Source: Meira nashicola
Lineage: Eukaryota; Basidiomycota; Exobasidiomycetes; Exobasidiales; Brachybasidiaceae
Length of the DNA stretch: 64,000 bases
Direction of reading: 5' to 3'
NCBI GenBank assembly: GCA_001600355.1
Contig: BCJU01000002.1
Location: forward strand, 3,720,001-3,784,000
The notes under the pieces were generated by a model. The model worked only from the letters and a program-made list of their open reading frames with translations. It had not been told where the DNA came from and made no database searches. Below, piece after piece: positions 19,232 to 62,779 of this stretch. A program made the position numbers and the translations under genes. Numbering within the stretch: the stretch's first letter is position 1; each line of letters starts with the position of its first letter.

Positions 19232-21157
19232 TTAGAAATCAGCCAGACAGCCACCATCTGATCCTGCAGTTTCACAAGCAATTGCTGAAAATCCACCGTT
19301 ACTCTTTACGTGTACGTTGACTTTTGAAGCATTAGTGACACCAGTAACAATTGTACGAATAATACCTGTTCGATCACTATCATCATCATTTGAATCGCTA
19401 ACGATATCTAAAATAAATTGTTTATCGTTTAGTAAGATTGTAGGTTATAATTCAAAAGTTTATGCGTCACCATTAAATAATGCACCGAAATAATAACGTT
19501 CAGAAGGTTGATAATAACGACCAACAGCAAAAGCTTTACCAGGATAAGAATTAGGTAAAACTATACTTGCTTGCCAAACGGAAGGAAGTCCTTTATAAAA
19601 TCGAGCAGCAAGATTATAACTTTTAATCACTTCAGGCGTTTCACCAATATATTGCCAAGCTGATTCAAATGCGATCGATTTTCCAAGTCCACAACCAACA
19701 GAACATTGAGCAGATTATTGTTGTTATTACTGAAAACCAGTATCACCTCCTGATACGGTATAAAGAGAAGGAGTGAAATCCATGCTACCTACCAAATTTC
19801 TGGTAAATAGAATAACTGTTTAACGGAATACATTACCTCCATTCTCATCACCACGAATAGCTTCTTGTGAAAGTAAATGAGGCCAAGTACGTTGATTACC
19901 ACGAGGAGGAGGTATACCATGAAAGTTAACCATTAATTTAGCTTGAGCGGTTTGTGATAAAATATAAGTTTATTGATCATAAATCGCTTGAACGTCTGAT
20001 AGAAAGAAATCAATCTTTACACCTTTAACGCCCCATTTGATTAAATTAGCAATATTGTTTGCAACGGCATCTGTTGAATTCCATTGGTTTGCAGGATACA
20101 ATAAAAGGATATCTACACCTTTATTATTTACATATTATACCAGATCAGGAACCCATTCTTCATTCCAACCTTCATCAACCAAAGTATAAGGCCATTGAAG
20201 TTCAGAAGCAAGATCAACGTATTCTTTTTATCTAGTTTCATTTGATAGAGAATTATATTCAGGAAGCCATGACCAAGAAACTGTTCCAGGTTTGATCCAG
20301 CTTACATCGCTTATATTTGTTGAAGGCAAATTATCTGCATCAAATGTAGTACGATATAAATCTGACAAATCAGCCACAACGGCGATTCTCCAAGGTGAAT
20401 AAATGCTACCATCCACTTTTACACTTCCTCCTTCGGCAAAGATGAATTTATAATCCAAAGAGCCAGAATTATGAGCAAGTTAAGAACCTTAAAATGAACC
20501 ATTCATATCTGATTCTTCAAGTAAAATCCATTGATTTGCAGCCGCAGAATTTACATCAACAAGATAAGGCATCATTACATTTTTTAAATCTTGCAAACCT
20601 GTTTGAGCATCGCTTTGTTCCCATTCTCCTTCATAAGAAGTATTTTCAGGATCATCCATTAAAAAAGAAGCACCATTTTGAGCAAAAGTCCATTGTGAAG
20701 TTTCACTGTTGATAGTATATTGACCATCAGGGAAACCAACCCGAAAAGCACAACCATCATTTCCTACTCGAATATCTATAGAGCTAGATTGACCGTTGGA
20801 TGTTTTACAGTTAAATGTTTGTGTTTGATATCCTGCATAATGTGATTGACTTCTACCTCCAGGGGTATTATACGATTCAACTGTATACGTTTGATCTTGA
20901 GCCGTACAAGAATTAAAATCGGGTCCAATATCACCATTGGAAGTAGAAAATCCTATATTAGAAGCACTAATGACTGTAGCTTCATTTGCTTGACAATCAA
21001 AGCTAAACACACCATTCGAATCTTGTTTGACTAATGCTCTAATCGGTCTATCATTCAAGCCAACAGTCCAAGAACGATCTTGACGAGAGATAAGAGCAGC
21101 AGAAGTGTTTGAAGCCAAGATGGCCAATACGATAAAGCAAGTAAGATTTAACAGCAT
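19232..21157 (-). pseudogene. GH97-like glycoside hydrolase, one frame with 11 internal TAA codons
   Basis: Read from ATG 21157 (a second in-frame ATG is at 21205) to TAA 19232-19234, the frame is 642 codons and encodes a full-length secreted GH97-like alpha-glycosidase. Seen: a signal peptide (MLLNLTCFIVLAILASNTSA), an N-terminal beta-sandwich, then barrel motifs SWIKPGTVSWSWLPEYNS, WPYTLVDEGWNEEW, GVKGVKIDFF and NFHGIPPPRGNQRTWPHLL. I translated the whole region codon by codon. The only defects are eleven TAA, with lowest bases at 20489, 20480, 20228, 20135, 19970, 19820, 19727, 19724, 19715, 19460 and 19445. There is no TAG, no TGA and no frameshift. About a dozen Trp (TGG) codons in the affected part are untouched. 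The first ~220 codons have none of these stops. Most TAAs sit where Gln fits, for example within a Gln run near 19715-19732. Confidence 0.8.
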
Positions 21158-21755
21158 CTTTTGGTAACACAATTGAATGGAGGATGATGGTAACAAGTTT
21201 ATCATTTGTGCTTTAGTATATTTTATATCCTTTTGGTTTTTTGAATTATTACCGGAAATCTCTTAACCTGACAAAAAGTGCTTCTTCTTCCATTTCCAAA
21301 GTGCCAGACATTTAGCGTGAATTCAACAAAAGAATATGTCCATAAAAGCAAAAGGATATGCAGTCGTTTAGAATTCTGAGTATTACCCCACAGAATTATT
21401 TAGCCTTTGCATAAATTAGCGCAAAAACAATCGGAAATCTCAAAATTTGCGGAAGCGTGTGCGTGCGGGACCAACGTGTACAAGGAACAAACAAAGACAA
21501 GAAGCAAATAATACCACATGTACAAGCGAGAAAGGAGTGTGTTTATGTGTTGTACTTGGCAGCGAACTATATGTTTCATGCATCGCCTTCCACGGATCGA
21601 TACTATAATTATTCCACGGATGGCCAAAGAAGAAAATAATAAAGGCTACTTTTACAAGAATGGACGTAAAAATTAAAATAGTGCAATTTATCAAATCAAT
21701 TTTGTATTATAGCCTACAATGAAGAGTGCTCACATTATGATTTGTACTTTGAATA
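21158..21755. other. Intergenic spacer
   Basis: Spacer of 598 bp between the GH97-like relic and the GFA gene; short frames on both strands are not convincing. Confidence 0.5.
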
Positions 21756-22199
21756 TCAATATTGTGCTTGGTCTTCAGGATGTGCGCAATTTTCAGACTT
21801 GAGTGGAGCTCTTGTAACGTCAAAACTGATTCTACGACTAATGTATTTGATTTGTTCAGGATGCATTAAATTCGTATTAACGGCCATTTTATCACTCTCT
21901 TGGATCGTTTTCCATTGTGTTATGCATCCGCAGTTTGTACAAAAATGAAATTCTAATTCTTTATCACCCCAAACGTACGCTTTTGTACTTGCATTTGGTT
22001 TAAGAGTTAATTTAACTTGATTTGGATTATAATACGCCCATGCAACACCATATCTTCGACAAAGCGTACATTTACATTCACAGATCTCTTTTGGCTTATA
22101 TGGAACTTCAAAAGAGATATCACCACAATGACACGATCCTTTGATTGGTGAGCTTGTTGTCATTTTGGAAGTGAAGTCGTGGTCAATCGGTGTAAGCAT
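21756..22199 (-). CDS. GFA/CENP-V domain protein (glutathione-dependent formaldehyde-activating family)
   Basis: Small zinc-binding protein. The family includes bacterial Gfa, which was proposed to promote S-hydroxymethyl-glutathione formation, and many fungal proteins of unknown substrate. Zinc ligands are seen in GSCHCGDISFEV, CECKCTLCRRYG and FHFCTNCGC, the classic spacing. Two in-frame starts exist, ATG 22199 and ATG 22163. The second is favoured, since it gives the usual short N-terminus and because a GCGCAGCGC box at 22207 would otherwise sit only 8 bp upstream. The length is 147 or 135 residues, normal for the family. Ends in TGA and appears intact. Confidence 0.88.
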   Translation of the reverse strand: MLTPIDHDFTSKMTTSSPIKGSCHCGDISFEVPYKPKEICECKCTLCRRYGVAWAYYNPNQVKLTLKPNASTKAYVWGDKELEFHFCTNCGCITQWKTIQESDKMAVNTNLMHPEQIKYISRRISFDVTRAPLKSENCAHPEDQAQY

Positions 22200-22206
22200 T
22201 CAATGT

Positions 22207-22215
22207 GCGCAGCGC
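22207..22215. promoter_or_regulatory. GCGCAGCGC box
   Basis: 44 bp upstream of the preferred GFA start (ATG 22163). Confidence 0.4.
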
Positions 22216-23356: not shown

Positions 23357-24583
23357 ATGTATTTTCGTTTTTTGATTATAACGATTGCTTTGCTCGCTCT
23401 TTCAGGGCTGAGCAATGCACAAATGACTGTCCAATCAGGAATGACGGCTGATGCTCATTGTGGAGATGGTTATTGCGTCACAGGTGTATATTCACCAAAT
23501 CAAAAGATGATCAATTATACGATGGTTGTGCCTCAAGGTGGATCACAGTTGGGTTGGTATGCATTTTCACAAGGCAATCGAATGGCAGGCGCAAATATGG
23601 TGATCAATTGGGTGAATGCAGATCAGTCAATCACTATTTCCCATAGAAGTGCAACGGGTGATCATCAACCTTTGGTAAATTTGGTCACCGTTCAACAATT
23701 CAGTACAAATTCCAATATTTCCAAAACAAAAACGGGACAAACGATTTGGTCATGGAATATGCCTATACCCTCTACAGATCCACAAAATGCCGTTCAACAT
23801 AGTTTTGCAATGTCTCCTAATTCTCCAACTTCTTCTGCCGTTGATGCAGATATACGTAAACATAGTAGATATGAACAAAATATTCTGTTTGATCTGACAA
23901 GAGCATATACTGGTTCAGCTCCTGCAGGTATGCTAGGCTCTACACAATTTGTCAATTCAAACGCACAAAAAAGTTCAAATGAAAACGGTCAAACAGAAAG
24001 GAATTTGAATAAAAATACAACGAGAATATATTTAGTTCATATGCTATTTTTGATAATTGGTTGGCAAATATGCGTCCCTTTTGCTATTCTGATTGCTCGT
24101 TACGGTCGAAGTTTCTTTGTTTGGTTTCCTTATCATCGTGCAATTATGATCTTTGGCTTTTTATTCGTTTTTATTGCTTTCTTTTTATCGGTATCGGCTG
24201 TTGCATTAAAAGGTGACAGTCATTTTGATAATCTACATGAAAAGCTTGGATTGGCAATATTCATTTTAATGTTTGTTCAAATTGGTTTAGGTGCCGCTTC
24301 ACATGGAATCAAGAAGCTTAAAGGTAAACGATTTATCGGTTTTATTCATATTCCGTTCGGTTTGATTTTATATGGTTTAAGCGTTTGGAATATACATGAA
24401 GGATTCAACGTATGGGACTGGCAAGCACCAGACTATGCGAGTTATATTATTTATGCTTGGGCAGGTTTGATGGGCCTACTGTACATAATCGGATTTGCAT
24501 TATTACCAAGAGAATACAGAAAGAAGAAATCAGAAGTACAATCTGAACGTTCATCGGAAGAAGAAGAAGTCAGACAAATCTAA
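23357..24583 (+). CDS. DOMON-cytochrome b561 membrane protein
   Basis: 408 residues, single exon, ATG 23357, ends in TAA. A signal peptide (MYFRFLIITIALLALSGLSN) is followed by a DOMON domain (residues about 22-185), the haem- or sugar-binding fold also found in the cytochrome domain of cellobiose dehydrogenase; here YFS-like strands and QLGWYAFSQGNRM are seen. A polar linker leads to a five- or six-span b561-type domain (about 220-385) with candidate haem His residues in LVHMLFLI, YHRAIMIFG, FDNLHEKLG and GFIHIPFG. The cytosolic tail is Lys/Glu-rich. The architecture suggests transmembrane electron transfer at the plasma membrane or endomembranes. It looks intact, although its neighbours on both sides are broken. 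Confidence 0.87.
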   Translation: MYFRFLIITIALLALSGLSNAQMTVQSGMTADAHCGDGYCVTGVYSPNQKMINYTMVVPQGGSQLGWYAFSQGNRMAGANMVINWVNADQSITISHRSATGDHQPLVNLVTVQQFSTNSNISKTKTGQTIWSWNMPIPSTDPQNAVQHSFAMSPNSPTSSAVDADIRKHSRYEQNILFDLTRAYTGSAPAGMLGSTQFVNSNAQKSSNENGQTERNLNKNTTRIYLVHMLFLIIGWQICVPFAILIARYGRSFFVWFPYHRAIMIFGFLFVFIAFFLSVSAVALKGDSHFDNLHEKLGLAIFILMFVQIGLGAASHGIKKLKGKRFIGFIHIPFGLILYGLSVWNIHEGFNVWDWQAPDYASYIIYAWAGLMGLLYIIGFALLPREYRKKKSEVQSERSSEEEEVRQI

Positions 24584-24911
24584 TCCCTTTACACAAGAAC
24601 AATTCAGTCACAGTCAGCTTCATTTAACGAAAACATTACTCAACAGCCGCCGATGATTACGCTCCGAAAGGATTAATTTATATGATATGCGAGATAAACT
24701 ACATGTAAATAGGTTATATTAATACTATCATCATTTCCTAGATCTACTGACGGCACTATAACCTATGAATCACAACACTCTAGACTCTCACCGCTCTCCG
24801 CCTTGCATAAAAGGCACTACTCATCCATTCGAGCGTGCGCTGATATTCTGTCAAACCGTGTGAGCTGAGTCAGACTCTTTTATGAGTAATAAAAAATGAT
24901 ATTAATCTGGT
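24584..24911. other. Intergenic, contains the start of repeat copy 2
   Basis: Spacer of 328 bp between convergent genes. From 24826 it is part of repeat copy 2. Confidence 0.5.
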
Positions 24912-25010
24912 TTAAAATGGAATCGATCTTTCCTTGTACAAAGTTGCGGAATCCAACACTTGACCTGAGGCAGAGGAGATAAAATTATGGGTCATATAAG
25001 TGATGTTATG
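24826..25010 (-). repeat. Copy 2 of a duplicated phosphatase 3' end
   Basis: Covers the last ~33 codons and 3' flank of the phosphatase gene. Homologous to 22320-22502, same orientation, about 2.5 kb away. Confidence 0.8.
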
Positions 25011-26345
25011 GAAAGTGAGTAATGAATAACCGAATTTTGTATTATTTGCGTAAGTGACATAACTTGGTAGAGGATTATTAAGAGTGTCTAAACCTGCAAA
25101 ATGACCTGCAGCACCATTTGTTAAATAGAGTGGAGCTTTTGGATTGTTTAGGCCATTCGGATCGGTAACGTTCTTGGCAATAGGCGCATTTCTTTCCATT
25201 GCATGAACATGACCCGATAAAACAACGTCGACGTTAAATTAGTTAAATAAAGGTTCAAATGCTGCTTGACATATATAACATAAACTACTTACAACATACC
25301 AAGGTCTATAACCTAAAGCAACAACCCAAGGTATAATTGCTCGATCAACAGATTTTAAATCATTTTCCATCCATGCCAATTAAGCACCAGTAGGAGCAAA
25401 TGGTCCTCCATTATCACCTTAACCTCCTCCAAATGCATCAGGAGCGCCAGGGAAATCTGTTTCTATGGTATAATAAATATAATAAACCATTCCATAATTA
25501 TAGCTATACCAAAAGTTTCCTACACCTTTTGAAATATCTGAAGGCATACGGAAACGATTTATATAACCTGTAAAGTTTGTTTGACCGACGGGACAAATGC
25601 TTTCGGTATATCCTTTTATACCACCATTATCGCAATTTGCTTCATGATTTCTAACAGAAACCATATAAGGTTTAAATACAGTAATATTTTCTAATTAAGT
25701 ATAAAATTCTTCATTAATCTGTTCATATACTTGAGGTCCTGTTGATAAATCAAAAGTTAAATAACCTAATAATTCTTCCTTTAACCAATAATCTGAGTAA
25801 GCAAAATCGCCTAGATGTAATAAAAAGTCAAATTGATCTAAAGTTATTGATAATCTTTGAATCGTTATAGTTTCTCCTGGCGCTAAAGCAGGTAGATATT
25901 TTTCATTAAAAGATAAACCTAAAGAACCAAATGTTCCCATATCGGCTACCATAGCAACCGTATGAGGCGAACGATCACCTTCGATACGAGCAGTTTTAAA
26001 TTGATAGGTTTGATTGGCAAATGAATTGCTTACGCTATAATAATAAGTTGTAAACGGTAAAAGATCTTTCAAAATAACGTGATTGAGATAAGTTATGGAA
26101 GTTGGATAAGTGACAGATTCAGAACTAGAAGCTTGTTACCAAAGTGTAAAAGGTGTTAAACCATACTTCACTGTTGGCTTATCTAATTTAGCATGCGTTG
26201 ACCATGAAACCGTCATACCATTTGTACCATGAAATGCTGTATGATGTTGACTTGGACGAACATTATCGTTGATGGTTTGTACAGAAAGAGCTGGCATAAT
26301 TGCAGCAAAGGCGATAAATATCACCACAACAGCACGTCCAATCAT
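24912..26345 (-). pseudogene. Purple acid phosphatase, one frame with 5 internal TAA codons and lost metal ligands
   Basis: From ATG 26343-26345 to TAA 24912-24914, one frame of 478 codons encodes a full secreted purple acid phosphatase (phosphomonoesterase with a two-metal centre). Seen: a signal peptide, an N-terminal Fn3-like domain (MTVSWSTHAKLDKPTVKYG), then VADMGTFG, LLHLGDFAYSDYW, MVSVRNHEANCDNGG, NFWYSYNYGM and VVLSGHVHAMERNAP. Internal TAAs lie at 26136, 25695, 25419, 25380 and 25239. Those in FYT-stop-LENIT and TGA-stop-LAWMENDL are where the family normally has Gln. Key residues are changed: GNHE reads RNHE, and GHRPWY reads GYRPWY (TAT at 25308-25310). No frameshift. Most likely a recently inactivated gene. 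Confidence 0.85.
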
Positions 26346-26797
26346 CTTTTTCTACTTTATAGATGTGAATGTTGGAAAGGACTTGTTCAATCAGTTAGAG
26401 AGATCATATTTTATATGTATTGAAACCAAACCCAATTTCAAATAAATGGAATCTTCCGACATGATTCTCTTTGATCTGCATTACAGGGAACGTGGACAAG
26501 CGGAGAATGAAATTTAAACTACTTTCAGGAACTGTACTTCCCTTCTTATGCGTAAATTGTATGCAGGTTGAAAACGCTAAGAAAACAAGCTAGCTGTGCC
26601 GAATGTGCCTGCGGGCTTTTACACGAGCCGGCGGTTAAAGTGTGTAAAAAGCTCAATTTCAAATTAAAATTCTGACTGCAGGGCATTTTCAGTAGTTTAT
26701 ATAGCAAATAGATTAATTTACAGCTGTTAGTATACAACATATTCAACTTTTACAGAATAGAGCCACACATCCCGATTCCTCATACAGTTAAAGAAGC
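26346..26797. other. Intergenic spacer
   Basis: Spacer of 452 bp between two minus-strand genes; nothing recognised. Confidence 0.5.
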
Positions 26798-28651
26798 TCA
26801 TTTGTTAGAGATGCTTTGACTGATCAAGAGCCTACATTGATGTAATTCTTGTCGATAATATTCCGCTACTGGCCAAACTTTACTTAGAATGCCCAAAGAA
26901 GCTTCTGCCATTCCGATACTGCTAACGCTTTGTTGAGCACGTAGTTCATCTTCTGTTCCTTTACTTGCCATATGTACCGCCAAACCAAAAGATGCTACCA
27001 TTTGACAACATCCGATTGGTGGCCAATGGGAAGAAGTGATGGGTAATGTCTCTCTTGTTAGATCAATTTGTGATTGCATTAGTGAAAGACATTGTTTGAA
27101 AAAGGCATCTGTATCCATTTGCATAAGATGTAAAATCGCATCGGATGATTGTGCAATCTTTTCTACGCTAGATGTGATCGATCCAGTTGAAATCTTGAGA
27201 GGTTCTCGACTTTCTTGTGAGATATCATTAATTTTTTCTCGTTTAAAACTGCATGAATCAAGACTTAAAGTTAGATCTTCAAACCAAAACAATCGGTGTA
27301 AATGTATACGACCGGCGTATAACATCATTAAACAATCAAATAAGATCGTTTGCTTTCCATTGAGCGTCCAATCCGTATTTCCTGCCAAACGAGCTTGCAT
27401 GGCAGATAAAAGCATTCCCTGCGCTTCAGCAATGATATTGGCTTGAATCTTATCAGCTGTCCAAAGCTTTTCTTCATCTTTAAATTTGACAAAATGGGTA
27501 AATGTGCCTGCTAATAATGATACACTGCGAACTCGAAGATCCCAAACGGATTGCATGTCGTTGTCTTTTCCTGGAAATTCAACATTGATTCGAATGCCAT
27601 CAAATTGACGTTTAATCTTTCCATTTGTCATCACATCCATTATGCAATCAATCACATAAAGTTCCCACCATACTTTCTTTGCAAATTCACCTTCTTGCAA
27701 ATCCTTACCATCATTCTCTTGCAAATTCAATGCCAATGCTGACGTGCGGGCCTGTTCGATATACATTTGCAAGGCCAACGTATCGTTCATAGCATGAGCG
27801 ATATAAATCATCAAAATCAGAGCTGACAAATACACGATGCTTGCATGCCGATCAAGTGTATGCATGAATATATTTCCCCCTATTTTCTCAATCGCTTCTT
27901 TTCGCATAGTCGTGCATGAAAGACTTTCATGACCTTCGTACAATGCATGTCCAAGTGCAGCAGCTGCATAAAGTAGCGCATCACAATACTCTGATTCTTT
28001 TATTATCTCCTCTTTGCTCTCGAAAAGCGGTATTGCAATTCCAACGCCAGTAAAGAAACGCGAAATGCCTTGGTGTAAGGTATTATTCGTGGTTATCGTA
28101 GAATTTGTTAACGGTATGAGATGATTGGGATGATCCAAAGAAGGTTGTTTTGAGGATGATGCATCGTGTATACGTTTGTGTATTTCTACCATTTGGTTAC
28201 TGGGTGATTGTGATTGAAATGACTCATTCGAAAGCGGAACAGTCTGATCATGTAGAATGAAGTCATCTTCAAGAAGATCAGAAATCATTCTAATCGAATC
28301 GTCAGAAAAGAGCATATTATCCAAAATGATATCATCTTGGTTAGGATTGATATGGTTTTGATCATTACTTTGGCTCCATTGTTGTGCTTCCAAAGATAAT
28401 TTACGCTTCTTAATCGGACGTCCGGTACGTTGACATGGTCTCCATTTACACTCTATTCCTTATCTTGCACAACGCGAACAATCCACTTCAGCATGGACAT
28501 CAGAAGAAGAAGGCTGTGTCTCAGACCTAGTTGTGATGATCACACTCGATATCATTCCATCGCATTTACTCTTCGCATTACGACATGCTAGACAAGCAAG
28601 AGAAGATCTTGGAAGGCCGTGTCGAGAAACAGACTCTGTTGTATTAGACAT
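26798..28651 (-). pseudogene. Zn2Cys6 transcription factor with a single TAA inside the zinc cluster
   Basis: One frame of 618 codons from ATG 28649-28651 to TGA 26798-26800, broken only by TAA at 28460-28462. The zinc cluster reads CLACRNAKSKCDG, a long Ser/Thr-rich insert, CSRCAR, stop, GIECKW. The spacing of the last two Cys is correct if the stop is counted as a residue. It is followed by a CxR/GRP basic linker (RPCQRTGRPIKKRKL) and a fungal-TF middle-homology region with FTGVGIAIPLFESKEEI, YCDALLYAAAALGHALYEG and AKKVWWELYVIDCIMD. The rest of the protein is undamaged. The next in-frame ATG after the stop would make a protein lacking the DNA-binding cluster. It could be a fresh pseudogene, a read-through gene or a truncated product. 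Confidence 0.7.
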
Positions 28652-29214
28652 TGATATCACACATGTTATCGTTGTAGGATCAATGTGAGAGTTATGATCA
28701 ATGTTTAATCCGCGATATTACCAACATCGTAAACTCATCTCTGCAAAAAGAGAAGTGGATTCGTGCCTTTTATAGATGGAAGGTGAGGGAATACTGAAAA
28801 CAATGAAGGATGAAGAAAGTAAAATTTACTTGTGCTACGCCACAATTAGCCTCCCGCATTTGGAGTGCATTTACGTGTAGCAAAAGTCAACCTAGAGCGA
28901 GCGTGTTCGACAGCGCAGCGCTGCAGTGCAGATATTCTTTATTTAACAAAGATATATACCCGACGGGCATTTAGAAGGCTCTTTTCGGGTACTTTGTTTA
29001 ACGCCGCTACCCAAAAACAGGTGAAGAAATTGACAGGTTTACGTTTTATGCTTACCCGACGGCTATTAAAAATTGAAAGACAATCTCTTTATTATTCTTT
29101 TGGAAGTGTACTATAGATTCCTTTTAGTATTATCAAATGATATAAATAGTGTATGATGTTACAAAAAAGGACGGTTTCAACCCATTAAAACTACAACAAT
29201 CAAGATAAACAACA
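28652..29214. other. Divergent promoter region
   Basis: Spacer of 563 bp with GCGCAGCGC at 28913-28921, part of a longer GC-rich palindrome-like block. It lies between the Zn2Cys6 relic and the ABC transporter gene. Confidence 0.6.
28913..28921. promoter_or_regulatory. GCGCAGCGC box
   Basis: In the divergent region between the Zn2Cys6 relic and the ABCG gene. Confidence 0.4.
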
Positions 29215-31071: not shown

Positions 31072-31168
31072 AGATGATTTTTATTTCAATGACATTTTTG
31101 TTGCTACTTTATAGGTCACTCAGAAGATTATGTTAGACAAGGTTCGAAGTGGCTACAAACATTGGTGG

Positions 31169-32233
31169 CTAAAAGTCGAAAGAGATTTCAGGAAATTCTT
31201 GTGTTGGTGCATCGAGTAAATTGCCATTCTTATCACCTTTTAAAAATTTGGAAAAGAAAGCATCTGTATAAGTAGACAAAATTTCCATAACTCGATCTCC
31301 TTTTAACGTTCCACTAAATTGCGCAATTGCACCTGTATCAACGCCTAATTTGGTTGCAATTAAAGGAAAGTCTGAAAACGTATAATGTATACTACCTCCT
31401 ACGATTTCTAATTGTTTTTTCCAGCCAGAAAATTTTGGCCATGAAGATTACCAAGTTGGATCTGAAGTGATATTCTTTCCTATATGACTGAAAAAGAGGA
31501 CGGGTTTATGCGAACCAACTTGAGAAAGGTCACCAAAGAAAGAACCGTCAAAGCTTATTGCACCAACGAATTTCGACCAGATCAAATCGTTCAATGCTCC
31601 AGCACCTCCAAGTAAATGACCTAACACGCCCACGTTATTTTGCTTTCCATTGGTGAATAAATTTACAACAAAGTTCAAATCTAAGCTTCTTGTATTTGCA
31701 GCAAGATAGATCTGATCATCACTCAGATTTAAACCTTTGACAACCTTACCGTTTGGAAATTGAACGATATCTGTATCATAAGGATGATCGACCGTTACTA
31801 CTGTATAACCTTTTTAAGCAATATTGGCTGCTAAGAGACTATAAAAGAATCGTGTTGTTCCTAAAGCACCCGAGAAGATAAAAATTGGATCAGAATTTCC
31901 TTTCTTTTTGCCATTAGAACAAATGGAAAAAATTAAATTCGAAAAAGTTGATTCAGGTAATCCATATGCACTAAGTTTCTTACCTTCAAATGAAGCCATT
32001 TCTGAGGGCATATATGCTTGCTTGGTTGGATGGCATCCGTGCTGTACACGTTTGAATGTTGACATCATCAATGCACGTGGTGTCTCGTTTGGTGCAAAAG
32101 GATCTAAGCGGGATTGATCAATAACTTGTTTGGTAGTGATTGCAACATTGTAAGAACCAATGTTTTGGCTTTTTACAAGTGGAAGTACACTGAAGAAAAA
32201 GGTAAAGATCGTAAAATAAAAGAATCCCAACAT
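31169..32233 (-). pseudogene. PAF-acetylhydrolase-like secreted lipase, two internal TAA and lost nucleophile
   Basis: One frame of 355 codons from ATG 32231-32233 to TAG 31169-31171. A signal peptide (MLGFFYFTIFTFFFSVLPLV) precedes an alpha/beta-hydrolase of the PAF-acetylhydrolase type, with PIFIFSGALGTTRFFYSLLA, GYTVVTVDHPYDTDIVQFPN and the late His segment GSIHYTFSDFPL. Internal TAAs lie at 31814 (after AANIA) and 31448 (after DPTW). The nucleophile elbow reads GHLLGG instead of GHSLGG; the TTA at 31613-31615 would be TCA (Ser) after one C-to-T reversal. No frameshift is seen. Because the catalytic Ser is gone, loss of function is likely even if the stops were read through. Confidence 0.8.
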
Positions 32234-52067: not shown

Positions 52068-52592
52068 AGGGTGAAAGGCAACAATTCATTTCTTTCATAG
52101 ATAGACTTATGACAATGCAACTTATTATCAAATCAACGCATACATAGGTGGTATGCGAGATAGCCGAAAGCTTAAAATGTTCGACAGATCTCTGTATATT
52201 TTCTCATACGAAATATTGTCTTTTACCCTATCCGCGCTATCCTGCACTTTCTAGGAACGCGTGGGGTTACCTCGGTAATTGCAAAATAACCGAATAGGAT
52301 TTACAGATTGTGAGCTTACACTTCTAAAAAAGCGTCAGGGATGAATGTACTCTTATCAACTTAGATCAAGAGCCAATGCACAGATTGGGATAGATACTTT
52401 CATATAAGGTTTTTATGGAAAAGACAGCTTGCATTTAGCCATGTGACATAAATGAAAAGGTAGCTTAATTTAGGTCATTCGGACAAAGATTCGGATCCGC
52501 GTAAGAACTAATTTGAGAATTACAAAAGATAGCAAGCACATTGAGTGAATTCAGTCCTTTTCTCTCTTACTATCACCAAAATCATACCTAAC
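52068..52592. other. Intergenic, 525 bp
   Basis: Nothing recognised. Confidence 0.45.
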
Positions 52593-52933: not shown

Positions 52934-54640
52934 ATGATACAGCCCTCTTCTATGCGTGATCGTGCTGCAGCGCTTTATAGGATAGAAAGAGATAGACTAA
53001 ATGGCGATACTTTTGATTCATATAAGTACTATACGTCGGCAGATGGCCGTCCGATTCCGACTCTAATAACGAGTCTAAAAATTGGTGCTTATCCTGTCTA
53101 AAGTAATATATTATTACTCGAGAAACAACAAGCATTTGATCGTATAAAAATATAAGAGCGTATTGTTTATCCTGCAGGAAGTTCTGCTTTTGATAAATTT
53201 TCGGTAACCTATGACGTTTCTAAATTGATAAAAGCGAAACTTTTTCAACCTGGTATAGTGACGCCATGTTATACTCGTTTTAGCACTGTAACTCTTGGCC
53301 GTAAGTATCCTGATTCTACGAGAAATCCAAGAGGTTTTGCGACAAAATTTTATACACCTAACGGCAATTATGATATGGGAGGACTGAATTGGCTAATATT
53401 TTTTGTTCGCGATCCCTGGCTAGGTCCTGACAACATCTGTTCTCAACAACGTAACCCGGCAAATTTTTTACTTGATTTCTAAGCATGGTTTGATTTCTTG
53501 GCCAACGTTCCTAAATCTATATATGCAGGTATAATGCTATTGTCCGATCACGGTACTCCGAAAGGTTGGCGTTTTATAAATAGATTTGGTTGCCATACTT
53601 TCTCATAGGTGAATAAACAAGATGAACGTACGTTTATTAAATATCACTGGCTGAGTAAGCAAGGCACCAAAAATCTCAACATAGAAGAAGCAACTATGCT
53701 GTGCGGTCAAGATCCAGATTATACCAAACGTGATTTATGGCAACATATCGAGAAAGGTGGCAAGTATGAATAGCAATTAAATATTCAAACGATGACTGAA
53801 GAACAAGCAAACACTACTGATTTTGATCCTTTTGACGTTACAAAGGTTTGGCCAAGAGGTAAATTCCCTATGCAACCGGTAGGCACTTTAAGTTTAGATA
53901 AAAATCCAGAAAACTATTTTCGTGACGTAGAATAAGCGGCTTTCAGTCCCGGAAGTTTAGTTCCCGGTATTGAAGCTTCGCCAGACAGTTTATTATTATG
54001 GCGTATGTTCTTTTATAGAGATGCCTAATATCATAGACTAGGCGTCAATTTACATCAAATCCCGGTCAATTGCCCATTCATGGCAGACAATATAAATTCC
54101 GATAATGTGGATGGAGCAATGCGAGTTGATGCAAATAACAAAGGTAAACAACAATATATGCCATCTCTGATCAATGCTAAACAAGGTATAGCGATTGAGA
54201 GTAAATCGCAAGAACAGCCATTATCAATTACCTCAAACAAGAACGAAGAGTCATCTTTGCAACTTGCACGTAATACAAACAATTTTCGTCATCGTGGTCA
54301 AGAATCGGAATATGATCAAGTACGTGAATTGTGGAAAAGAGTGATGTCCGATCAAGAAAAGCAAAATACTGCAAATAATGCATCTTTCTTACTTAACACA
54401 GTAGGTGATTTTGACGTGATCACATTATTCTTATCGCAATGTTATGCAATTTCACCAGATTATGCTGAAAAGATTCATGAACGATTAACAATGAAAGAAC
54501 AAATTCATATGGAAAACGTAAAAGAAAAAGCAAAAATTGCGCATCTTGTCAATGTTGATCAAAATCATTTGGTCGGAATTGCTAAAGAAACTTCTTTTAT
54601 GGGCATGAAAAAAATCGAATGTCCGTATAAGTTCAAGTGA
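52934..54640 (+). pseudogene. Catalase, one frame with five TAA and two TAG codons
   Basis: From ATG 52934 (or 52952) to TGA 54638-54640 a single frame of 569 codons encodes a haem catalase (2 H2O2 to water and O2): [75 protein letters not shown] and YHRLGVNLHQIPVNCPF. Internal TAAs are at 53099, 53153, 53480, 53933 and 54026; the last two fall at invariant Gln sites (DVE-stop-AAFSP, YRDA-stop-YHRLG). TAGs at 53606 and 53771 fall where Trp is usual. The distal catalytic His segment VVH reads IVY, and a conserved SIH reads SIY. No frameshift. Inactivated by transitions. Confidence 0.88.
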
Positions 54641-56558
54641 AGAATCCACAGCCCTCCCGCTGTATCTACAAAAATATAATGAATTTTATCGAACGAAAGA
54701 AAAGAACATTGTTGTCGTAGGATGATAACATAATGTTCTCTAGAATGATGGATTCCCTGCGAATACACTGAACAGTACACTTAATGTATGCACCTCTCAG
54801 AAATTTGCTTCATTTGAGAATACCCCAGCGGGACGATAGCCAAACAAAACTTAGAACTAAAGTTCGGTATTGATCTGATCGAATTGCACTTACGTGTCTC
54901 ATTCTTATCATCGAGAAGACGGTAAACATTTAGATGAGATAAGAGAGCTTGGCTAGTTAAGCCTAAATGGGAGGAAAGCGCGAATTTAAAATAATAATTG
55001 TTAACCCATGCTTCTTATAAACTCAAATCACGGTAACTGGATCATGGATATAAAAAGATAGCCATGATCGAATAAGAGCCAAAACAACGAAAAATTCAAC
55101 CGGCCTCTCCTCTGTAAGATTAAATGCTCAGACCCAAGCTTTTTTGAGAGCTTTATATACACTTGCCGTTCGAGCCGGTATAACGGAGAAGTCGAGTTCC
55201 TTAAAAAATTATACAGTCAATATTTCTAACTTGAATTGTTACACAAGCAATATTTGAATGATGATGAAAAGTACCTCTGCTTTTTAGACTAGCAGTAACA
55301 CATTCAGGTCCGACCGTAATACTAGATCCGGCGAGGTGTCTGTCGCAAAGACAGGCCAGCTCTTAAACATTTCAAATGGTGCTGCTTTGCAATTCAACTT
55401 TCCTACAAAGGCCCGCGTATTCTATGTTGCGAAGTCACCTGTGGTCGCCTCCAGTGATTTGATCAGTAGAAGTCAAAAAGTGCTCTGTTCAATAGTGAAA
55501 TCGAATGTTGTTAATACTGGTTGGATGACATAAGCAATTATGCGCCCTGTGCATGCAAGGGCATGGTAATAATCTGCTATCTCCTATCTTATCCTATCCT
55601 ATCCCTACAAAGTTTGGCGAACTAGCTTTAATTTTAGCTTACATAGCGATCACGCAAAATCAGCTCCGAGGTAATTCTTGCGGCTTCTTAGCCCATTACT
55701 TAGCAACTGCTTCTTTAGCCAAGTTACGTACCTTTAGAAATGGAAGCGACACGTGATATGTACTTTTAGGGGGGCTTCCTCATCGACACTCCAGAATCCC
55801 AGTCTCGTAAAATTTTTCATGCATAACAGGAAAGTTTCCTCGTAAGACCAGTCCAGCGTAAAGAATAAAATTTACCGTTGCAGCATACTAGAGGCTATGC
55901 TGACTTGAGTATAAATAGTATTTACAGACTGCATCTCGGAATACAGGAAACAATCTTTTATATTCTATAAACATTGTCCTCTTTTCGATGACCTAGCTTG
56001 ATAAGCTACATTCCTGACAGTCGAAGTTGATTAAAGTCTACTAGAATCTAGGGCAGCAGCCGAGGATTATCGGCATGGTCTGTGCAAAGGCGCAATACAA
56101 CAAATGGAAAATACAAACGCGAATTGTGCTGTAATTATTTCTCTCTTTCATCCATCATCTTTCTTTATTCTAGGGGGGTCTTTTTCTGTCACAAACAGTT
56201 TTTTCAGACCCACCCGCCTCCCCTGTCATCGCGTCGCGCTCATCCAGCTGTTGTTCCGGCAACGAGCGGGAGCAGGCCAGACAGAAACGTCCAATGACGT
56301 TGTTGCAATTAATCTGTTTTCAATCATCTTTCAACCTGACTGAGCCGTGTGATAAGACTTTTCAGAGAATCCGGCCGGAAACGCATTCTCATCGAACGCA
56401 ATGTTTAAGCAGGGGGCGCTTAAGATTTTAGTTTCATCCATTCATTCGGATAAAGCGAAAAGGATTTTTGATCACGCTACCAGAGCGACCCACAAAGCTT
56501 GATCTCGATCATGCAGCAATTTAAAATTAAAAAAGAAAAAAAAAGGCTCAAATGGCAT
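54641..56558. other. Intergenic, 1.9 kb
   Basis: No gene recognised. A short TATCC-type pentamer repeat lies at about 55584-55605. Open frames at 55336-55756 look like chance. Confidence 0.5.
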
Positions 56559-58075
56559 TCATGAAATAGCGTGATGAGCTTGAATATCATCACCTGCCTT
56601 GAAAATTGTGAGCGATTCGTGTTGAGCCATAGGAGGAGTCAGTGTAGGTATCAACGATGAAGACGATAGGAGGGACACTGGAAAGCCGTATTTTGGTGGT
56701 ACAGTCGTGGGAAGTTGATTGCATTGTTCTGGAAAAGTAGAAGAAAAAGGTGATTTAAGGCCTCGATAAAATGTAATAGGGGAGGAAATCTGCTCATCTT
56801 TTGACCGGTCGTTGGGATCAGTCAGATGTGCCAAGAAAATATCTGCTTTATAAATAGAGAATATAGCAAATTTGATCTCTCCATGTGGAATAACAATTGC
56901 TTCCAAATCGATATCTAGACCATCTATAAGTACGTTGAATGATAAAGATTGACTTCGTTTACATGTTGTCAATTCTTCAGGGCTTGCTAATAAACTTTCT
57001 TGGAACGTTGACTGGTATGTTAAACGAGCAAATTCGTTTGCAGAATAATTGTTGCCGCTTATATAAATGTCTGAATTGGATTTGTTTCGGTCATAGTGCT
57101 GTTGTTGTTGCTGTATTGAATCAAATGTTCTTGGCGGTGGCCAGGAAAAAAGAATATTCGGTTGTGAAATATTTGATAAAATTTGAAAAATCTTTTTCGG
57201 AAAACCGTTCTAATGTCTTTCGAATATATTTGATGAAGAAGTCTCGATCATCTTTTCTGAAAAGATGTGTTCCTAAAGCTTTTGACAATTTTGATCGTTA
57301 AGCGTATTTAACATTGTCTTATAACAACCTGAACGCTGAGAATGATTATTTTTATCATCATCATTCTGCTTAGCTATACCCTCGACAGCATGAAAGAAGC
57401 ATAACATCATTCTATTTCCTGTAAGCTCTAAGCGAATGTCAGTGAATTGATAATAATCGTCTTTTACTTGTGCTGAAGAATAACCAGTAAAAAAAGATTG
57501 AGCATATCCAACTATGGACGGAACGCTTTTTATCATACATCGTAGCACCTTGCTCTTTGCTCTTCTTTCAGATGTAAATTGTGCTATTTCCATTTCTATC
57601 CGTCTTGCTTCGTTAGGATGAATGAAATTTAGTACACTTATTCCGTTGAGTAATTGAACACTAGAATCTGATAATTGCTCCAAGGTTTGATCAAGATGAA
57701 GAATTGCTAGATTTGACTTGCTCAACTGAACACTAGGATCAGAAGATCGAATGGAAAAGATTGCCCAATCTGAAAGGGAAAAGAAATGCGTGAGATCTTG
57801 ATCTTATCATGAGAAAAAAATTCCATAAACTTACAGCATACAACGTTTTCAAGAGGATTTATTCCTCTATCATTCTGTTTTCTGAATCTCAGTCTCCTTT
57901 CTTGCTCAAACATTCTTCTTTCTAAGCCAAAAAGAAATGATTTTGTAGTATTGTGAAAAGGTGTCGAACTTATTGGCCGTTGAATCTCTAATTCCTCTTT
58001 TGGTTGTTGTATAAACGGACCACAGTCCATCGGTGATGTAGTTGGAATCATTTGAAAGCTTGTTGCATGTATCAT
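56559..58075 (-). pseudogene. PAS-like regulator related to the neighbouring GATA gene, two in-frame TAG codons
   Basis: Exon 1 is 57835-58075 (ATG 58073-58075). The intron 57770-57834 has a GTAAGT donor and a pyrimidine-rich TTTCAG acceptor. Exon 2 runs in one frame to TGA at 56559. Exon 2 begins with a PAS-like segment (HLDQTLEQLSDSSVQLLNGI, VLNFIHPNEARRIEMEIAQF, LTGNRMMLCFFHAVE), then a Gln-rich linker and a block (IPHGEIKFAIFSIYKADIFL) shared with the GATA relic at 59847-60488 (ILHGEIKFALFFVEKAEY). Two TAGs at 57273 and 57210 interrupt an otherwise continuous frame; no phase-compatible intron removes them, and both would be CAG (Gln) before C-to-T change. No GATA finger is found. PAS plus GATA would be white-collar-2-like; tentative. 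Confidence 0.5.
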
Positions 58076-59215
58076 TTGCGTATTAAGATTCAATCAGAAT
58101 TGAACGAGAAGAGATTGAGGTCGAATTAGTTACGTGAACTTTTCAATTTGTCGAGAAAAGTGACGATGACTTTTTATTCTTTGAGCCGCCTTTCTCATAT
58201 AATCGTATATATGTTTTAATAATGGGTGGCGGACTACAGAAAAATAGATGGAATTTGATGAATGGTGAAATGGAAAAGATGATGAAAAAGCTCTTTTATC
58301 TGTTTTCCACATATGTCTAAATCTTCTTTGCTTTTTCCGATATCTCCAAATCATTTATTGATTGTTTGAATTACCTACGAAGCTGGTATGATTCCTGCGA
58401 AAGGAGAAAGAGAAAGGGAAACTTTTTGAAAGAAAGGAAAAGGAGAAATAAATTTTGAATGTCAAAGTAACCTGTCTGAGCTTGAAGATCGCGTTTTGAC
58501 AACTTTTCGCGTTTTCACAAAGGGGAACGCAAGAAACAAAGTTTAATTGTCAGCGTCAACGGTAACTTTCTTCCATATCTTGCACAGGAATAGAAAGTGT
58601 CAAAAGGGACAAGGGTAGAGAAAATAATTGGAAAAAAGGATGATCGGACATTGACTTTATATGAAATTGAAGAATGTGTTAGCCTACGATCGCGGATCTA
58701 AAAGATTGTATTGTTCTTCTTTTTCCGATATAGTTCGTTCACATTCAAGCGTTTCGGCTCTTGTTTTACCATTTTCGTCAACGAAATCTATTGTATAGAG
58801 CATAAATTCAATTAAACAAAAGATATGCCATCATGCACTCTTATAGTTTAACTATTAAATTTGATTGGTGATCGAGATCAAAAAAAAAAAAAAAAAACTC
58901 GGGCTTTTAATATAATAGGCTCATTTGATCCTAATCTATAAAGGCACCAAACCTGTAAGACAGAAATAAGACTCGCAGAAAGTATATATGCAGGCGCACA
59001 CCTAACGGGCGTTAGACCGGCGTCCAAGAAATCACTTTTAAATATTTGAGTCCTTTCCATACTTTTTTCCATCTTCTCCGCATAGACTTCTCTCACTTGA
59101 TGTCATTATAGGGCTCCATAATTGAACAATTGTATAAAGTCTTTCGAACGATACGTGCTTGATAGGTTTTGAAAAAGAAATAGAAATTCTAGTCTAGATG
59201 TAGCAAGACCGAACA
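58076..59215. other. Intergenic, 1.14 kb
   Basis: No gene recognised with confidence; 58130-58354 (minus) and 58878-59096 (minus) are open but look like chance. An A18 run lies at 58880-58897. Confidence 0.45.
58880..58897 (+). repeat. A18 homopolymer
   Basis: Run of 18 A residues in an intergenic region. Confidence 0.9.
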
Positions 59216-59491
59216 ATGCGTTCAGACGAACAGCAAAGCATTTCTCCATCTTATCTTAACACTTCTTCAACACCTTTAAGAATTAAAACAGATTCAAGTG
59301 ATAAAACAACATAAGCAGCCAAAGTTCGACATTATCATCATTCCTCCATTCAACACCATCCTATTTCAAAATCTTCTCCGGCCATATTTCCGAATTTATC
59401 CAAAGGAGGAACATCAACATAAAATCTTGAAATCATAACACCCTTGCATACCTTTCTATCCACTTTTGACGAGCTCACTCAGACTGGATAA
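59216..59491 (+). pseudogene. Coding-like frame with two internal TAA codons, family unknown
   Basis: From ATG 59216 (MRSDEQQSISPSYLNTSSTP) one frame runs through TAA at 59312 and TAA at 59420 to a third TAA at 59489. Segments between the stops are Ser/His/Thr-rich and end in the structured-looking NLEIITPLHTFLSTFDELTQ. Composition and the absence of other stops suggest a former gene 5' end. Reading each TAA as Gln gives a plausible protein, matching the pattern in neighbouring relics. No family recognised. Confidence 0.35.
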
Positions 59492-59846
59492 GTTTTTGTA
59501 CTCCGAAGATTAGACTCGATCTTTGCTCGATATATAACAAGCCTGCAAAAGCGCTAAAATACTGGTTTGGCACCAGTATTTTTTTTTAAATTTTAGAACA
59601 AAAAGACGTGATTGCTATCCAAAGCATGTGGTGAATAGAATATAGATTTCTCGTCAAACAATCGATCGTTAAGCTTTGCTTGCTCATCTCCCACTTTCAA
59701 ATCAAAGGGAAAAGAACAATGACAAGAACGCAGGTACACGCTGAAAACCATCCTTTTTTTGCGATTGCATTCCGCTTCGTGCTCTATACATCAGTGAGCA
59801 GAAATTGTGATTTGATTTATAACTTTTTTTTTCATTTCTATTAGCC
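59492..59846. other. Intergenic, 355 bp
   Basis: Nothing recognised; 3' flank of the GATA relic. Confidence 0.4.
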
Positions 59847-60488
59847 CTATTTCTGTGTCTTCGTTGTCTCTCTCGAATATCGTAATCCGCATGCGTTGCA
59901 TAAACTTTATTTTCCAGCCGGACCTCTTCGCCATTCTGGACTTTTTGTAGTTCCACACATCGAGCACTTCATTATAGGTGAAATCATCTGACTTCTTTCT
60001 TCACTACCCTGTCTGGTGCCGTTTATTCCTGCCAATATAGCATCGGTCATTGGGGAAAAGGTCGCAGCTTCATCTGTACGTGCGGACGAATTGGCTTGTA
60101 CATTATCGTTCTGTGATGAATTAAAATCGGCAACTCGTTCTGAGTTTCGATTAGAGAATGAGCTTGCTGATGAGGTTTGTGAAAATGACTGGATTGGACC
60201 GAGTTCAGAGGTCCAATCTTCTGGTTGTTGTTGCTGTCCAGAGCTCGATGCCCAGGTGAAAGGAGATCCTTGGCCCTCATGCACTACGAGAGGATACATT
60301 TGCTTATATCGAACATCTTCCTTTTCTAATCGATTAGGTTGATGTTCGGCAGAGTATTCTGCTTTTTCAACGAAGAAAAGTGCAAATTTAATTTCCCCAT
60401 GCAGAATGATTTTTACAAACAAGTCGAGGGCACGGGCGCAAATGTGCGAAATCCAGTTGGGGTTTCGCTTACTAGGTGTAATTCTGTG
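59847..60488 (-). pseudogene. GATA zinc-finger relic with TAA inside the finger, 5' end missing
   Basis: The open frame from 60488 to TAG 59847-59849 contains HGEIKFALFFVEKAEYSAEH, a Ser/Gln-rich linker and a GATA finger: CSMCGTTKSPEWRRGPAGK, stop (TAA 59907-59909), SLCNACGLRYSR. Counting the stop as one residue gives CX2CX18CX2C, the correct fungal GATA spacing, so TAA replaces a residue and does not end a domain. There is no ATG-led N-terminus: upstream in frame is a TGA at 60489-60491, and then the C2H2 gene begins. The linker is homologous to that of the PAS-like gene at 56559-58075, so this is the tail of a second family member that has lost its PAS part. Confidence 0.6.
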
Positions 60489-60517
60489 TCATTCATCATC
60501 TCCCATACGGTGAGAGG

Positions 60518-61247: not shown

Positions 61248-62037
61248 TCAACAGCTTCCAGAAGTGTCGTCTTGGGATTCTGCCGGCTGATTGCCAGTGC
61301 TGGGTTGTAGTGGCGTATAAATGATACCAGGTGCAACACAATTCACTCGAATGCAACGAGGGCCAAACTGCTTGGCTAAGGCACGTGTCATGGTGTGAAA
61401 ACCGCCTTTCGTTGCGCTATAATCTACAAGGTTTGGATTGCCTTGATATGAAGCAACAGAGGTGGTGAGAATGATACAGGCACCACGTTGCAGATGAGGG
61501 CTAGCATATTTATCAAGGCCAACATGGCAATGTTGTTCAGCTTGAATGTTTTTTTCGCGTTTTCGAGCTCCTCAATACTTTCATAGATATGCTGCCGAGC
61601 AGCATTATTCACGAGGATGTCAAGCTGGCCAAATTCAAACATATGCCGTTCAATAACTTGCTTCCATGACGATTCACACAAAAGATCAGCTTCGATGGGG
61701 AAAAAACGCCGACCAATAGACTCGAATTGCTCTTTCAAAGTCTCAACATCTTCTTTTTCACTAGGCAGATGGACAATTGACACATCTGCCCCTTCTCTAT
61801 GGCATATAGCAAAGCAGTTGAACGACCGATACCCGAATCACCTCCAGTGATGAGCGCAACTTTATTTTCGAGCTTACTTGCACCACGATAAGCTTCCAAG
61901 AACGGCTTCCCGGACTTGTCAAAGTCTTCAACGTTTGTCGACACTGCTAATGGACGCATACGTTCTTCTAGCCCTGTCTTTTCTTGTTTCTGCGGCTGGA
62001 TTGACTCCACTGGAAATGTGGTCTTTGTACCCTCCAT
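61248..62037 (-). pseudogene. Short-chain dehydrogenase/reductase with two frameshifts
   Basis: From ATG 62035-62037: LENKVALITGGDSGIGRSTA (NADP-binding TGxxxGIG), then in a second frame DVSIVHLPSEKEDVETL, FGQLDILVNNAARQHIYESI (NNAA motif), then in a third frame YASPHLQRGACIILTTS, LVDYSATKGGFHTMTRALAK (YxxxK active site) and RVNCVAPGIIYTPLQPSTGN, ending TGA 61248-61250. Each shift is explained by one missing base, the first in a run of G near 61790. The order and motifs match the 'glucose/ribitol dehydrogenase' SDR type (YhdF-like). Two indels within 800 bp suggest a pseudogene; assembly error is the alternative. Confidence 0.7.
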
Positions 62038-62248
62038 GATGAGGTGAGCTGATAAAGCGACCGAAACAGTCAATTGTAGCTATATAGCCTAAATTGCAGT
62101 TATAGTTGTGAGAAGTACACGAGAGAGACCTTTCTATGTCTTACCGGGGCTTTTGTCATGTTTATACACTCCTTGTCGGAAAAGAAGGAGGGTCTGCGCG
62201 TAGACCCTAGACCCTGATTGGCTAGCTTTGTAGGGTCAACATAGTCAG

Positions 62249-62280
62249 CGTCATTGTTCTCTATCAACGTCATTGTTCTC
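62249..62280. repeat. 13-bp direct repeats flanking a 6-bp spacer, next to the PMI fragment
   Basis: CGTCATTGTTCTC occurs at 62249-62261 and 62268-62280, directly before the start of the PMI fragment, possibly marking a rearrangement junction. Confidence 0.6.
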
Positions 62281-62281
62281 A

Positions 62282-62779
62282 ATGGAAACTTTTGATCGGA
62301 TTGAAGGCTCCATTATTGAGTGCATGGCCAGCAGCAGCAATGTGATCAATACCGGCCTTGGACCAAAACCATAGACAAAAGCTGTAGACATCTTTACAGA
62401 GATGCTTTCTTACAAAGCACGACCTTTAAAGGATTTTCGGGTAGAACCACAACCTTATTTTCACAGCAAAAGGGAAGGAAACGGTTTGATTTATTCCGTA
62501 CCAGAGGAAGAGTTCAGTGTTCTTGCTGTCACTCTAAAGTCTGGACAGTCGATGGAACTCGATCCTATAGAGGGTCCATCGGTAATTCTAGGTTTTGAAG
62601 GCGATGCCAAGATCGAAGCTAGATCATCGAAAGAATTCGACAGCAACATTCAAGCTCTGGATATGTCACCAGGAACAGTGATACTTATAGCTTCTGAAGC
62701 AACTGTATGTATTTCCACGGGAGACAAATTATCCGCCATAGGGTTTAAAGCCTATCTGACATACTGCAATCTACGTTGA
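62282..62779 (+). pseudogene. C-terminal fragment of type I mannose-6-phosphate isomerase
   Basis: The frame from ATG 62282 (METFDRIEGSIIECMASSSN) to TGA 62779 matches the C-terminal third of type I phosphomannose isomerase, the zinc enzyme linking fructose-6-P and mannose-6-P for GDP-mannose. Seen: IIECMASSSNVINTGLGPK, FTEMLSYKARPLKDF and YSVPEEEFSVLAVTLKSGQS. A TAG at 62372-62374 interrupts it at a position that can be Gln. The N-terminal two thirds with the zinc ligands are missing; upstream lies the SDR relic on the other strand. An ATG at 62402 would allow translation of 125 residues, but without the catalytic centre. Confidence 0.6.

Follow-up and report, generated by a model that had tools for sequence, protein, structure and literature searches.

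Evidence for C-to-T mutation directed at CpA in subtelomeric gene copies of the exobasidiomycete Meira nashicola

A 64-kb stretch near one end of a Meira nashicola contig holds five gene copies that are interrupted by internal stop codons and that have open paralogues elsewhere in the genome. This stretch, hereafter the window, is G000:C2:3720001-3784000, from a genome of 17,882,171 bases in 20 contigs. Contig C2 has 3,834,998 bases, and the window ends 51 kb before the contig does, which makes its position subtelomeric. Here, we describe the mutations that separate these copies from their paralogues, which are concentrated at cytosines followed by adenine (CpA). Coordinates of gene copies are window positions; paralogues are given by contig (C2, C3, C6, C7, C9, C10, C11). 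The five copies are the following.

19232 to 21160, minus strand: glycoside hydrolase 97-like (GH97) copy with 11 internal TAA, all in its 3' two thirds
24893 to 26344, minus strand: purple acid phosphatase-like copy with 5 internal TAA, 4 of them opposite Gln in the nearest paralogue
31170 to 32248, minus strand: lipase or PAF-acetylhydrolase-like copy with 2 internal TAA, both opposite Gln in two paralogues
52940 to 54640, plus strand: catalase copy with 5 TAA and 2 TAG, at Gln and Trp sites
56594 to 57806, minus strand: PAS-like gene copy with 2 TAG opposite Trp and a 1-base deletion near 57772 relative to its paralogue

The stop counts are those given by an earlier reading of the same DNA, made without database searches (the sequence-only reading). 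Its statement that frames were kept without frameshift holds only roughly: the PAS gene is one base short, and there are small, compensating or in-frame indels in the GH97, catalase, and lipase copies. Within the coding spans of GH97, phosphatase, and catalase, indels are absent or compensating, except for one in-frame loss. Pfam assigned frames read through their stops to GH97, purple acid phosphatase, catalase, GATA, and a lipase family of the PAF-acetylhydrolase kind. At an E value of 0.001 it gave no match for the frames called PAS-like, zinc-finger, and PMI, names that come from the earlier sequence reading. A genome search placed close paralogues of GH97 on C10 and C6, of the phosphatase on C10, of the catalase at C2:2394538, of the lipase on C9 and C11, of the PAS gene on C10, C7, and others, and of a zinc-finger gene on C6. 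The paralogue coding spans are open (480; 644 and 644; 584; 358 and 361 residues). For the PAS gene, the regions matched span 400 and 384 residues without a stop, and the copy on C10 includes 7 N.

Codon alignment of the five genes revealed a narrow class of stops. The window copies contain 27 internal stops, of which 23 are TAA, 4 TAG, and 0 TGA, and no internal TGA occurs anywhere in the aligned coding spans. Opposite them, the nearest paralogues carry CAA (19), CAG (2), TGG (4), CGT (1), and GAA (1); the sites opposite CGT and GAA could earlier have been CAA on the window lineage. Alignment to homologues, which the sequence-only reading had suggested, therefore puts 25 of the 27 stops at Gln or Trp codons. 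That reading had described the stops as often lying at Gln, which is correct for TAA (21/23) and incorrect for TAG, where all four tested stand at Trp. For GH97, 10 of the 11 stops face Gln codons in both the C10 and the C6 paralogue, and a by-eye comparison with a catalase from another source (P0241) found Gln or Trp at all seven catalase stops. The nearest paralogues hold 117 CAA, 13 CAG, 15 CGA, and 43 TGG codons. Under context-free C-to-T mutation, the probability of zero TGA among 25 transition stops is 7e-4. None of the 15 CGA codons was converted to TGA, because CGA is a CpG site rather than a CpA site; in the change of TGG to TAG, the CpA sits on the opposite strand.

The same preference extends well beyond the stops. 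We assigned each C-to-T difference to the side bearing the T and to the base 3' of the C, on both strands, setting apart from the pooled counts one site beside an N. Across the five genes, CpA differences number 162 on the window side and 68 on the paralogue side (p = 5e-10), whereas the remaining contexts are balanced (CpC 27/29, CpG 69/69, CpT 104/92). The Mantel-Haenszel odds ratio is 2.21 (p = 8e-6). Because the genes had been noticed through their stops, we also removed the stop-making sites, which left 137 versus 68 (p = 1.6e-6). The window-side CpA changes comprise 55 synonymous, 80 missense, and 27 nonsense changes, and those on the paralogue side 47, 21, and 0. Some missense changes fall in conserved stretches: a His-to-Tyr change in the GHRPWY stretch of the phosphatase, along with a Gly-to-Arg change adjoining NHE, and a His-to-Tyr change in the ERIVHPAG stretch of the catalase. 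We take the two altered His residues to be catalytic or metal-binding. The gene copies have, with high probability, undergone directed C-to-T mutation of their DNA at CpA, and the lean of the sequence-only reading toward such mutation is upheld.

That reading had also offered an alternative in which UAA and UAG (UAR) are recoded or edited to Gln. The concentration of TAA at Gln codons is what this idea would lead one to expect. Yet every tested TAG stands at Trp, the stops are accompanied by the missense and synonymous CpA changes, and a His of a conserved stretch is lost in two enzymes. Furthermore, the paralogues of GH97, phosphatase, and lipase terminate in an ordinary TAA, the standard code leaves long neighboring frames open, and ARAGORN found no tRNA gene within the window. 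Because of the TAG at Trp, the missense and synonymous company, and the TAA-terminated paralogues, we rejected recoding or editing, which can hardly be correct.

Support for the CpA excess differs among genes. Sign tests at CpA gave 40/11 for the phosphatase (p = 6e-5), 47/16 for the catalase (p = 1e-4), and 35/16 for GH97 (p = 0.011); the lipase (23/17, p = 0.43) and the PAS gene (17/8, p = 0.11) were not significant. Other counts for these two copies, 22 versus 16 and 17 versus 9, respectively, likewise fall short of significance. When nucleotide alignments were used to compare CpA with other contexts, the phosphatase (p = 8e-4) and the catalase (p = 9e-4; its first part, 9e-5) again stood out. 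The catalase excess is confined to 52940-53900 (39 versus 10), with 7 versus 7 over 53901-54658. GH97 passes the sign test and the strand test described below; the lipase and PAS genes pass neither context test. The effect thus rests on the phosphatase, catalase, and GH97 copies.

The distribution of changes across codons speaks to the order of events. Differences outside CpA fall at codon positions 1, 2, and 3 in the numbers 184, 125, and 525, a third-position bias that is the mark of long purifying selection. The CpA hits are spread evenly (54, 40, and 58). The contrast between the two argues that the copies probably functioned as genes first and were hit at CpA afterwards.

The hits are also coordinated by strand, as are the mutation runs of Neurospora repeat-induced point mutation (RIP). 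In GH97, hits fall at 31/134 sense and 4/147 antisense CpA sites (p = 1e-7; minus is the coding strand), and another count places 31 of 36 CpA hits on the minus strand. The phosphatase leans in the same direction (30/118 versus 10/95, p = 0.008), the PAS gene toward antisense (sense 6/97, antisense 11/62, p = 0.03), and the lipase and catalase have no overall bias, although in the catalase the strand that bears most of the hits changes along the gene from plus to minus. Pooled, the window side switches strand 54 times where 77.6 switches are expected, and 0 of 5000 shuffles were as low; the paralogue side switches 36 times against 33.0 expected. Strand-coordinated clusters with strand switches, in a subtelomeric location, might also be left by a single-strand DNA deaminase of the APOBEC or AID kind, or by damage clustered around breaks close to the end of the chromosome. 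APOBEC3 prefers TC. The base 5' of the CpA hits (A 54/245, C 32/225, G 27/235, T 49/340) reveals no such preference, and the tested flanks carry no excess, which makes deamination or damage of this kind very unlikely.

Four further genes of the window that have paralogues provided comparisons.

23411 to 24564, plus strand: open cytochrome b561-like gene (named by sequence reading), control; 72% paralogue on C3, CpA 22 versus 25
26790 to 28659, minus strand: zinc-finger gene with one TAA opposite Leu; CpA 35 versus 27, not significant, excluded from the effect
29198 to 31072, plus strand: open ABC transporter gene, control; 81% paralogue on C6, CpA 22 versus 24, no excess
44351 to 45775, minus strand: open glutathione reductase gene, ambiguous as a control; 69% paralogue at C2:419590-421002, CpA 33 versus 17 (p = 0.03)

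The zinc-finger and ABC transporter genes (26790-31072) are duplicated side by side at C6:132573-136803, with 77 to 81% identity. The sequence-only reading had listed nine frames broken by TAA or TAG and never by TGA, and the five treated above keep that description. The zinc-finger frame does not, its stop at 28460-28462 being the one opposite Leu, nor does the GATA zinc-finger frame, in which Arg is encoded opposite the stop at 59907-59909. The frame at 59216 is no conserved reading frame: indels against a homologue of 85% identity are unphased, and the first three of its TAA lie opposite a gap, TTC, and CAA, respectively. For the PMI fragment, the DNA search gave no match among the best candidates that it scores. 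The label "RIP-like" given by that reading fits context and strand behavior, whereas any dependence on repeats is putative, and the affected set shrinks from nine frames to five.

These comparisons bear on whether ordinary neutral pseudogene decay with a local mutation spectrum might suffice. The copies are subtelomeric, and there is decay by mixed means in the same gene family: by eye, the PAS-family relics L027 and L058 contain frameshifts and mixed stops, including one opposite Lys. A further relic (L056) has a lone stop opposite a conserved Trp, consistent with CpA mutation. The PAS-like gene is a member of a sizable group, with 14 matches listed on C2, C3, C7, and C10, and the region that holds it (56594-60432) shares a 4-kb segment of coding and noncoding DNA with C10:10060-14023 at 82 to 85% identity. 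Neutral decay could also draw on the glutathione reductase gene, which leans at CpA without having been inactivated. Against it stand a window-copy excess at CpA alone, the lack of TGA, the strand coordination, the near absence of uncompensated indels from GH97, phosphatase, and catalase, and ABC and cytochrome b561-like duplicates that have no excess. We consider neutral decay improbable.

Several observations weigh against the view that a RIP-like process produced the pattern. At the level of genes, comparison with other contexts gave p = 0.12 (C10) and 0.052 (C6) for the distal half of GH97, 0.85 for the lipase, and 0.33 for the PAS gene, and the lipase and PAS genes combined have 40 versus 25 CpA differences (p = 0.08). 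Most of the strand coordination comes from GH97; without it, switches number 49 against 60.7 expected (96/5000 shuffles as low) and 25 against 26.4 on the paralogue side, and the catalase paralogue side is itself low in switches (4 versus 8.0, p = 0.04). The open ABC pair is untouched at CpA despite its 81% identity. Since the unbroken glutathione reductase leans at CpA, base composition can yield such a lean, which weakens a CpA lean alone as proof. In that gene, the remaining contexts CpG (20/37) and CpT (34/51) lean the opposite way (CpC 11/15), which suggests a difference in base composition between two old copies; the five broken genes differ in having flat non-CpA contexts. In Neurospora RIP, all repeat copies, normally both, are mutated, whereas here the paralogues are open, with fewer CpA hits that are mostly synonymous. 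Finally, the genes that could be tested were those with a paralogue, so that duplication stands as a putative trigger.

Noncoding DNA and repeats add to these difficulties. There is no CpA excess in the noncoding flank of GH97 (11 versus 12 against C10, 10 versus 10 against C6), upstream of the phosphatase (0 versus 4), or over 58094-59200 (11 versus 10) and 59216-60432 (11 versus 9). The cutoffs for RIP indices that are quoted in an excerpt of PMC7884421 (TpA/ApT of at least 0.89 and substrate index of at most 1.03, here per 1-kb bin) were reached in 3 of 64 bins: that at 53001 lies in the catalase, those at 13001 and 36001 in none of the affected genes. A subtelomeric repeat extending to the end of contig C2 is as lopsided at CpG (46/13) as at CpA when that end is compared with C7, and comparison of six of its copies indicated that the CpA lean is partly common to related copies. 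The closest pair of this repeat (97% identity over 2,455 columns) differs at CpA by only 8 versus 3.

This repeat makes up the first half of a 7-kb duplication near the contig end (C2:3786373-3793236, L037, and C7:213825-220705, L065; 84% identity), which includes a PAS-GATA gene that is open on the C2 side. The duplication was not picked by its stops and has CpA differences of 85/55 (p = 0.014; p = 0.046 against the other contexts, which are 53/55, 55/44, and 73/78), with the excess in its first half, that is, in the multicopy repeat. As an outside replicate, it is weak, and repeats are not being vigorously mutated today; a vigorous, repeat-wide RIP was rejected on the evidence of the nearly spared 97% pair.

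Two other duplicated stretches lie in the window. The segment at 50208-52068 has counterparts of 76 to 80% identity on C2 (C2:3820351) and C6 (C6:78079); CpA differences of 25 versus 18 and 31 versus 22, respectively, are not significant, and plus-strand CpA leans to the window copy (20 versus 7 and 22 versus 10). A short dispersed repeat at 10702-11108, with copies up to 90% identical on C2, C6, C7, C8, and C10, differs from one copy at CpA by 1 versus 1. An Rfam scan of the window had no match, and the one gene compared with a phage collection, glutathione reductase, had none either.

Relatives of three genes, one of them the methyltransferase described below, point to an exobasidiomycete-like basidiomycete. 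The best named relatives of the window's glutathione reductase are in Exobasidium rhododendri, Acaromyces ingoldii, and Sympodiomycopsis, and the best named fungal relative of the open catalase (L013:1588-3291, C2:2394538) is in A. ingoldii. Over 374 residues, the open catalase is also 100% identical to an annotated protein of the fern Adiantum nelumboides (P0245), a protein that bears an aquaporin-type Pfam domain as well. This is most simply read as contamination of the fern assembly by this fungus or one almost identical to it. The match hints that the sequence was obtained as by-catch, in which case polishing may have been weak, and so lends something to the suspicion that a long-read assembly shows T where cytosines modified at CpA were misread. 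Such an artefact sits poorly with the open state of adjacent long frames and with sites, such as those with CAG or CGT opposite TAA, that need more than one C-to-T change; there is little chance that it accounts for the pattern.

A six-frame PF00145 search of the genome found, among the matches listed, one C5-cytosine methyltransferase gene, in two pieces at C1:2955858-2957310.

C1:2955600-2957310 (L033, L034): C5-cytosine methyltransferase gene, 528 residues after splicing three short introns by eye

The spliced protein has PF00145 alone and no BAH or RFD domain, although further upstream exons may lie beyond the DNA examined. Its nearest relative among the matches listed is from Exobasidium rhododendri (41% identity over 83%). 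The best matches among solved structures are DNMT1 (E about 1e-42), with a weaker match (2e-27) to a DNA methyltransferase chain of 1,456 residues. Members of the RID/Masc1 family depart from ENV in motif VI; here motif VI is ENV. The catalytic stretch is 420 residues, versus about 240 in class I as described in part of PMC4352252, and relative to the classes set out there the protein resembles class I in lacking BAH and RFD, and class II in its longer catalytic stretch. Beside the RID/Masc1 family, the enzyme agrees in the lack of BAH and RFD and differs in motif VI. Its link to the mutations is correlative, a further point against assigning it a part, and any role is a guess that follows from its being the sole candidate among the matches listed.

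A methyltransferase could, however, act without any sexual process. If silenced subtelomeric copies were methylated at CpA, slow deamination during mitotic growth would mutate them without the sensing of repeats. Dim2-dependent CpA mutation in Zymoseptoria tritici, as portrayed in excerpts of PMC8063080, is a precedent, and the single methyltransferase gene listed, the single copy hit per pair, and the patchiness of hits all fit. The strand-coordinated runs nevertheless resemble processive events more than scattered deaminations, CpG is balanced, and the noncoding flanks of the affected copies are unhit. We regard methylation-linked mitotic mutagenesis as a serious rival, though not a likely one.

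By a small margin over even chances, we favor RIP-like CpA mutation of the five subtelomeric copies, triggered by duplication and carried out through the short methyltransferase. Over a long period of evolution, the copies would have been functional duplicates. A C-to-T process would then have acted at CpA in strand-coordinated patches; the phosphatase, catalase, and GH97 genes were clearly hit, and the lipase and PAS genes are counted as hit by their stops. Such a process would yield the changes of CAA to TAA, TGG to TAG, and His to Tyr. Neurospora-type RIP is premeiotic and acts on duplicated DNA. By analogy, duplication may be the trigger here, in a genome-defense role and most likely at a sexual stage, with the 528-residue, BAH-free, DNMT1-like methyltransferase possibly acting first and deamination following. 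Given that close repeats persist and differ little at CpA, the process would have to be mild or rare, perhaps episodic. CpA preference and strand-coordinated runs were both found in the five genes when pooled, and all five have paralogues, yet the ABC and cytochrome b561-like duplicates and the 97% repeat pair were spared.

Published accounts place CpA mutation elsewhere in the fungi. Excerpts of PMC4352252, PMC5073141, PMC4014442, and PMC4457147 link CpA mutation to RID in ascomycetes and CpG mutation to basidiomycetes, with CpA ranking second to CpG in PMC4457147; passages of PMC4352252, PMC5073141, and PMC12210899 tie CpA to RID, report RID as absent from basidiomycetes, or assign CpG to them. 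RIP-like CpG hypermutation is described, in the portions of the literature consulted, for Microbotryum, rusts, Rhizoctonia solani AG8, and Ganoderma sinense, where CpA is second choice behind CpG, and part of PMC5106213 describes repeats of Ustilago bromivora as CpG-depleted, as for U. hordei. In excerpts of a 2025 kingdom-wide survey (PMC12543289), repeat-directed signatures are nearly confined to ascomycetes, and a figure legend there names exobasidiomycetes among the classes in whose noncoding DNA k-mers are enriched. Our searches of the open-licence literature turned up no account of mutation dominated by CpA in Ustilaginomycotina. The broader proposition, that strand-coordinated, CpA-directed RIP exists outside Ascomycota, in an exobasidiomycete without a recognized RID, by means of a stand-alone DNMT1-like enzyme lacking BAH and RFD, and on diverged duplicates, is doubtful, and we put it forward tentatively. 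If true, it would imply an independent or much older origin of RIP, and the association of CpA with RID would no longer hold once a basidiomycete with a single short methyltransferase had a signature at CpA alone; that methyltransferase would be a small candidate enzyme. Comparison of diverged paralogues also detected the signal where RIP indices fail to single out the affected genes.

The catalytic domain of the candidate enzyme is best matched by DNMT1 structures, as would suit a basidiomycete DNMT1/Masc2 protein, but it differs from DNMT1/Masc2 in its 528 residues and its single PF00145 domain. With the Dim2-linked mutation of Zymoseptoria tritici, as that source partly describes it, our case shares the CpA context and a process that would be methyltransferase-linked and not necessarily sexual; that fungus is an ascomycete with Dim2, whereas here there is a short DNMT1-like protein. 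The CpG hypermutation of basidiomycetes, which prefers CpG or TpCpG, is likewise a C-to-T bias in a basidiomycete, proposed there to be linked to methylation, but in our genes CpG is balanced and CpA alone is in excess. Unlike in Neurospora RIP, the host is a basidiomycete, one copy per pair is hit, the 97% repeat pair is spared, and no RID/Masc1-type methyltransferase was recognized. What the five copies have in common with RIP in Neurospora and the Pezizomycotina is the change of C:G to T:A at CpA, the killing of duplicated genes by TAA and TAG, and the arrangement of mutations in strand-coordinated runs.

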